Assembly (NCBI GenBank): GCA_024638845.1
Contig: JAHEJN010000001.1
Location: forward strand, 20,344-84,343
Source of the DNA: Acidimicrobiales bacterium
GTDB taxonomy: Bacteria; Actinomycetota; Acidimicrobiia; Acidimicrobiales; JAHEJN01
Direction: 5' to 3'
DNA: 64,000 bases
Shown here: positions 36,612 to 37,721 of the stretch, one piece after another
How the letters are laid out: each line of letters opens with the position of its first letter
Numbering within the stretch: position 1 is the stretch's first letter
Made by a program: the position numbers and the translations under genes
The notes under the pieces: generated by a model
Databases searched by the model: none
What the model was told of the DNA's origin: nothing
The model's input: only the letters and a program-made list of their open reading frames with translations

Positions 36612-36659
36612 TTCTGGCGCGCTATCGATGCACCCTGACGACGCCATTGCGCGCCAGAA
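36612..36659. repeat. Palindromic element copy A (11-bp arms, 26-nt loop)
   Basis: TTCTGGCGCGC (36612-36622) ... GCGCGCCAGAA (36649-36659), perfect arms; overlaps 3' end of the AbiEi/DUF559 gene. Confidence 0.95.
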
Positions 36660-37617
36660 CGGTCGTTCCGGCCACCCGTCGGACGCCGTGAATGGCGCGC
36701 CGGAGCCGGGCGATGACTGCATCGGGCTGATGAAAGAGATCCGAGCCGGTCACCGATACGACATGCCAACCCGCCGCAACGAGCTCGGCCCGGCGCCGTT
36801 GATCGTGCTCCTGGTCGGTGAGTGAACCATGGTGGGTTGCGCTGTCGACCTCGACCAAGAGGGGAAGCACGGGATGGCGGAAATCGACTCGACCGACCCA
36901 GGCAGTTTCGCTGCCGACGTTCACCTGACGCACGAAGTCGGGTAGACCCGCTTGGGAGGCGAGTTGACGAAGGCGTGACTCGAGTCCCGACTCGGGCGGC
37001 CGATATCCCCGGACCGACCGTGCCGCAATCAGCTCGCGAAGCAGCTTGATGCCCGGTCGACCCTTCTCGGCGAGGTCGGCGAGCATGGCGGTCAACGATT
37101 CACTCGAGACCAGACCTCTGGACATGGCCGTGTCGAGCGCTCGCTCGAGCCGCAGCGGATGAACGTCGCGTCGGCCAGCCAGGTCGAAGATGGTGCGCGT
37201 CGGCGACGTGATCGGCACGCGGTCGTGCTCGGTGATGTGGCGAGCAAGAACCAGTCGGGGTTGATGGACCACGATTGTGGTGTCCTGATCTCGGAAGCCC
37301 GTACGTCCCGATGTCGTGACGTCGACCTCATGGCGTCGCCACCCGGGGAGTCCCCAGTGGTCGGCGGCTGACCAGGACGACACCACTGCGGGTTGTGGCG
37401 CGTGCAACACCGCGATCATCAGCTTCCTTGTCTGCGTTGCCGGAGCGCCGACCAACCGCAGGACGCGCGGCGTGACCCATTGGAGGGAGCCTCGGTCGAT
37501 CCTTGCCCGCACCAACGCTCGTGATGCTCCCAGCTCGGTCAGCTGACGCCGCGCAATCACGCCGTGTTGGGCCTCGCACACGGCGAGAATCCGAAGGTCG
37601 ACCTCGGCTGGTGGCAT
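36622..37617 (-). CDS. AbiEi-like N-terminal domain + DUF559 (Vsr-like nuclease fold) protein
   Basis: N-terminal HGVIARRQLTELGASRALVRARIDRGSLQWVTPRVLRLVGAP winged-helix; C-terminal ESRLRQLASQAGLPDFVRQVNV...VDFRHPVLPLLVEVDSATHHGSLTDQEHDQRRRAELVAAGWHVV. Confidence 0.85.
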   Translation of the reverse strand: MPPAEVDLRILAVCEAQHGVIARRQLTELGASRALVRARIDRGSLQWVTPRVLRLVGAPATQTRKLMIAVLHAPQPAVVSSWSAADHWGLPGWRRHEVDVTTSGRTGFRDQDTTIVVHQPRLVLARHITEHDRVPITSPTRTIFDLAGRRDVHPLRLERALDTAMSRGLVSSESLTAMLADLAEKGRPGIKLLRELIAARSVRGYRPPESGLESRLRQLASQAGLPDFVRQVNVGSETAWVGRVDFRHPVLPLLVEVDSATHHGSLTDQEHDQRRRAELVAAGWHVVSVTGSDLFHQPDAVIARLRRAIHGVRRVAGTTVLARNGVVRVHR

Positions 37618-37673
37618 GCCCCATGTTTGCGTCCCGCAGTGACAACCCGCGGCCCCACTCCCCTCTCCACGGC

Positions 37674-37721
37674 TTCTGGCGCGCGCTCAGTACCCGACAG
37701 CAGCGCCATCGCGCGCCAGAA
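37674..37721. repeat. Palindromic element copy B (11-bp arms, 26-nt loop)
   Basis: TTCTGGCGCGC (37674-37684) ... GCGCGCCAGAA (37711-37721), same arms and loop length as copy A; just upstream of the AbiEi/DUF559 gene. Confidence 0.95.

Follow-up and report, generated by a model that had tools for sequence, protein, structure and literature searches.

Palindromes Bracketing an AbiEi-DUF559 Nuclease Gene in Actinobacteria: A Probable REP/RAYT-Like System with an Unrelated Enzyme

Introduction

One locus of the window, the stretch of 64,000 nucleotides analysed here, raises the question of what ties a nuclease gene to the two palindromes that stand on either side of it. The gene encodes a protein with a DUF559 domain, a class of proteins that abounds in actinobacteria and is for the most part unexplained. 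A sequence-only reading of the locus had linked gene and palindromes, seeing in them either a compact mobile unit or a part of a regulatory or toxin-antitoxin circuit. The linkage, the dispersal of the palindromes and their gain and loss were followed through related genomes, most of which are drafts with crude gene calls.

Organisation of the Locus

The two elements (Table 1), first described as ~48-bp palindromes with identical, perfect 11-bp arms, are both present at the positions where they had been placed, and a search of the whole window found no other exact copies of the arms. Palindrome A lies at the 3′ end of the nuclease gene, between this gene and the convergent proS, and covers its stop codon and last codons. 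Palindrome B lies in a divergent intergenic region, 57 bp upstream of the start of the nuclease gene, and its arms are those of A plus one further paired base (12+24+12). These placements agree with the original description of A as supplying the stop codon and of B as lying just upstream of the start. The loops between the shared arms were rightly described as equal in length, but not as identical; they differ in sequence, as the same reading also noted with the word diverged, and they share the end GCCAT[T/C]. The folding of each palindrome beats that of nearly all shuffles, with z between -2.4 and -3.6. No T-tract terminator was found at A or B by the terminator scan, and an Rfam search and the terminator and promoter scans gave no matches. 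The neighbours of the nuclease gene are proS and a gene without a Pfam match.

Table 1. Features of the locus, in positions of the window
Feature	Position	Strand	Description
Palindrome A	36612..36659	n/a	48 bp, 11-bp arms, 26-nt loop, TTCTGGCGCGC-N26-GCGCGCCAGAA
Palindrome B	37674..37721	n/a	48 bp, 12-bp arms, 24-nt loop
Nuclease gene	36622..37617	minus	331 aa, ATG start; AbiEi-like + DUF559

The genome-wide search for the arm pair with 26-nt spacing that had been proposed from the sequence was run on the window's own genome (3.7 Mb, 220 contigs). It returned exactly three copies, versus none for the reversed-pattern control, and a relaxed search added one weak candidate with three mismatches. 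The third copy (C151:23680-23727) stands alone, 6 bp past the stop codon of an acyltransferase-like gene, and the stretch available around it contains no DUF559 gene. At spacings of 16-36 nt, the arm pair has four occurrences in the GTDB contig collection, none of them with 26 nt, and three 26-nt-spaced copies in one 3.7-Mb genome are therefore not due to chance. A second DUF559 gene of this genome, on contig C104, is only 27% identical to that of the window and is preceded by a distinct 48-bp palindrome, GAAATTGGTTTG-N24-CAAACCAATTTC (L034:842-889), in the interval that separates it from a FabH-like gene. The contig terminates within the nuclease gene, so that the downstream side lies off the contig. 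A classical insertion sequence was considered and rejected because near-identical multicopy units are lacking and the second copy is this divergent.

Conservation of the Arrangement

Homologues of the nuclease were found in 124 of the 247 genomes sampled from the class, with up to at least eight per genome among the matches listed. At the homologue loci a palindrome stands on either side of the gene, with arms that are common to both sides and different between loci (CCGTTTTCGCGCGGG, TTTTTATGACGTAAAACCGCCC, and CCGCTCTGTGGTGCGAGC are examples). The arrangement was scored with a strict pair test, which requires a palindrome on both sides within 200 bp and a mutual BLAST match at E<=0.01. Such pairs were found at 49 of 90 loci in the class, compared to 0 of 719 other genes of the same regions (Fisher 6e-54), upholding the proposed link between gene and palindrome. 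Beyond this class, the phylum shows the same layout less frequently: 14 of 56 loci from other classes have strict pairs against 0 of the 719 control genes (Fisher 2e-17). The 41 class loci that fail include some with short or decayed arms, the window's own locus being an example, and some that are truly without a pair. In the median geometry, the palindrome measures 48 bp, the upstream one ends 49 bp short of the start codon, and the downstream one begins 2 bp past the stop codon. This layout is held at non-orthologous loci, and the upstream position is very constant. The gene and its flanking palindromes belong together.

A shared terminal motif, WWYTKG, is only moderately enriched, at 22% of arm ends against a background of 2.4%. 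At three loci (L068, L069, and L294), the cognate palindrome is repeated in tandem to one side of the nuclease gene.

Palindromes Away from the Gene

Palindromes with the locus-specific arms also stand alone elsewhere in the genome of the locus. The pattern GTTTTCGCGCG-N24..30-CGCGCGAAAAC is present in five of the 247 class genomes, with 25, 23, 15, 12, and 6 copies, always of 50 bp among the matches listed, and the reversed control gave none. These five genomes, four in one genus and one from another family, are exactly those in which that arm was seen to flank the nuclease gene. A second pattern, TTTTGGCGTC-N24..30-GACGCCAAAA, occurs in 13 genomes of 11 genera, all of which have the gene; the gene flanked by this arm was located in four of the 13 (G073, G077, G116, and G236), the loci of the others having been read in part. 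The nuclease gene is thus present in 18 of 18 palindrome-positive genomes (p=2e-6 with relatedness ignored), a p-value that relatedness inflates, the effect being weaker when counted by genus. When lone copies are compared over the inner part of the palindrome, which is not fixed by the search, 49 of 50 find their best match in the palindrome that flanks the gene in their own genome group. Arm similarity also follows protein identity, with a Mantel r of 0.215 compared to a permutation sd of 0.044 and a maximum of 0.167 among 1000 permutations. The inner arms covary, being 81% paired versus 36-40% when slid, with 99 double-changed cells; the symmetry of the palindromes is kept by compensatory changes.

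As classified with the crude gene caller, lone copies lie mostly just past stop codons, between convergent or tandem genes, and only two of those classified lie in divergent intergenic space. Copy numbers are modest, with 1-25 per genome and three in the window's own genome, versus hundreds for REPINs. Scattering of the palindromes without a link to DUF559 genes, named beforehand as the outcome that would speak against a pairing, is not what is seen: the palindromes form genome-specific families with dispersed lone copies that are cognate to the gene.

Protein Domains

The protein has an N-terminal AbiEi-like region (approximately residues 9-184), matched by PADLOC with an E-value of 3e-26 and weakly by Pfam, and a C-terminal EDxHD/Vsr-like DUF559 nuclease region (approximately 210-310), for which DUF559 is over the Pfam cut-off and REase_MTES_1575 slightly under it. 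PDB profile matches of the nuclease region are 3hrl, the EDxHD homing endonuclease domain 3r3p (I-Bth0305I), and Vsr. Across 38 homologues, G189, E213, and D272 are invariant, and D245, E256, H263, and R275 are nearly invariant. The fold match together with the conserved E/D/H/D residues assigns the protein, as far as sequence comparison goes, to the EDxHD/Vsr-like superfamily. In a single-sequence structure prediction, the nuclease part, at low confidence, resembles 3hrl and 3r3p with an E-value that is not significant, and the N-terminal half is unusable. No match to a transposase of the HUH/Y1 tyrosine type was obtained by Pfam, PADLOC, or PDB profiles.

Presence and Absence between Relatives

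The search for empty sites that had been called for found the palindrome-gene-palindrome unit present or absent as a block. The site in genome G097 that is orthologous to a unit of G037 (L113) measures 23 bp, versus 1056 bp in G037; both flanking convergent genes end there and the palindrome is gone. The junctions of the two genomes are too diverged for a target-site duplication to be read. Genome G049 is without the L117 unit and shows an unrelated-looking palindrome at that place. Two lone palindromes common to G200 and G031 have no counterpart at the orthologous positions of the sister species G102 and G110. Collectively, units and lone copies are present or absent between relatives as complete blocks, through insertion or deletion.

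Other sites were seen in the course of this comparison. At the place of the G073 unit, two relatives (L170, G049:C53:88266-88404; L169, G159:C22) carry a differing palindrome immediately past the stop codon, GGTTGTTTG...CAAACAACC and GGTTGTG...CACAACC, which may be another palindrome family or a terminator. A same-family genome, G001, has no unit after proS, yet synteny is lost there. Indels of ~1.1 kb among the fetched regions were tried as unit presence or absence and rejected, as the gaps inspected were ordinary gene gains and losses. An ATPase-like gene of ~1.6 kb (L142:3679-5310 and L116:9561-11197), which by eye we take to be of the DUF4143 type, is present or absent between close relatives of one genus.

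The gene stays in the same housekeeping neighbourhoods across several genera or families; from their translated neighbours, we take these by eye to be aconitase, 2-oxoglutarate dehydrogenase, gatB, uppS, rplY/pth, and others. One group of orthologous neighbourhoods has different arms from genome to genome, yet in most of its genomes the two copies remain matched, indicating that the two copies evolve in concert. The nuclease is absent from the phage set, plasmids gave one distant hit only, and viral contigs gave nothing, so that horizontal carriage is not the main story. The idea of a compact mobile unit is therefore retained as regards presence or absence in blocks and given up as regards fast jumping, considering the fixed neighbourhoods, the near-absence from plasmids and phages, and the divergent copies.

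Discussion

The unit of palindrome, nuclease gene, and palindrome, ~1.05-1.1 kb in length, probably represents a family, widespread among actinobacteria, that functions in the manner of REP/RAYT with an unrelated enzyme. In the proposed mechanism, the ~48-bp palindrome would offer the AbiEi-type winged-helix region a pair of half-sites for binding, and nicking or cutting there would fall to the EDxHD/Vsr-like nuclease domain. Its substrate could be a duplex, a cruciform, or a single-stranded hairpin at the replication fork. This action might copy palindromes to new, mostly gene-end, sites and keep them alike within a genome, similar to the spread and homogenisation proposed for RAYTs and REPINs (PMC3116915). 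The upstream palindrome may double as the operator of the nuclease gene itself. The bolder claim, that this is a second class of palindrome-propagating systems, with an independent origin, in which an AbiEi-EDxHD nuclease replicates its own co-evolving binding palindromes by non-HUH chemistry, could in our judgement equally prove right or wrong.

The palindromes might instead be operators of an AbiEi-type regulator, with autoregulation by the upstream copy, control or organisation of the chromosome by the others, and a separate job for the nuclease. AbiEi and Rv2827c do bind paired 23-bp inverted repeats that lie ahead of the genes encoding them (PMC7319586), and the position of the upstream copy is very constant; however, the second copy is located at the stop codon, lone copies mostly lie past stop codons with only two classified ones in divergent space, they turn over as complete blocks, and the nuclease residues are conserved, which makes regulation by itself an unlikely account. 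It seems improbable that the unit is a homing-type selfish gene, in which the EDxHD nuclease would cut palindrome-bearing or palindrome-lacking alleles, the unit would be copied by recombination, and lone palindromes would be its remnants. Although I-Bth0305I is among the nearest solved relatives and whole units are present or absent at one site, lone copies exceed genes in number (up to 25 versus a few), they have a genome-specific sequence in common and stand at sites without any gene remnant, and the checked empty site of G097 retained no palindrome. Regulation only and homing only explain less than the REP/RAYT-like reading because of the stop-codon copies, the turnover of lone copies, and the conserved nuclease residues. 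Ordinary bidirectional terminators or structural hairpins, alike through gene conversion and unrelated to the protein, could be considered for copies that fold as hairpins and in many cases lie between convergent genes. This explanation is very improbable, considering that A and B are without T-tract terminators, that arm types follow the nuclease gene and its genome, and that none of the 719 other genes is bracketed.

A full-text search of the open-access literature returned no relevant description of DUF559 or AbiEi with palindromes or REPs. The link to cognate dispersed palindromes gives the DUF559 family a testable job, and the protein is, to our knowledge, the first candidate for an enzyme other than RAYT that would account for dispersed palindromes in bacteria. 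Moreover, the many gene-palindrome pairs with differing arms are a ready set for the rules of AbiEi-type DNA recognition.

Relation to Known Systems

The homing endonuclease I-Bth0305I and Vsr share, by profile match, the fold and catalytic residues of the nuclease domain. For EDxHD homing endonucleases and Vsr we know of no flanking palindromes and no dispersed palindrome family. With the AbiEi antitoxins of type IV AbiE systems, the similarity lies in the N-terminal region, and the reported AbiEi target, a pair of 23-bp inverted repeats separated by 3 bp and ~49 bp long altogether, fits the palindrome size (PMC7319586), which makes the AbiEi link useful. In contrast to these antitoxins, the present protein is a nuclease fusion, and the repeats are also located at the stop codon and throughout the genome. 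No AbiEii nucleotidyltransferase toxin gene is adjacent at the window's locus, and other loci border varied housekeeping genes; an AbiE toxin-antitoxin system was rejected on this ground despite the AbiEi-like region, and the suggested toxin-antitoxin circuit finds no support.

CGTC-tagged REPs are likewise dispersed, possibly mobile palindromes without a RAYT or other dedicated enzyme, and the stated open question of the enzyme behind them (PMC3733652) is one to which our candidate may speak. Their stems of 8-9 bp and loops of 4-5 nt are different, and they occur mainly in Alphaproteobacteria. The closest likeness in layout is to REP/REPIN-RAYT systems (REPtrons), where a chromosomal gene for a DNA-processing enzyme has palindromes on both sides and cognate palindromes are dispersed extragenically in genome-specific families (PMC3116915, PMC3733652). 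RAYT is a HUH/Y1 tyrosine transposase, whereas the enzyme here is an AbiEi-EDxHD/Vsr-like nuclease; REPs bear a GTAG tag, whereas the ~48-bp palindromes here are untagged, GTAG being absent from the ends of A, B, and the listed arm types, and low in copy number. Sharing the layout while differing in enzyme and GTAG features, the unit works like a REPtron, as we read it, without being a member of that group.
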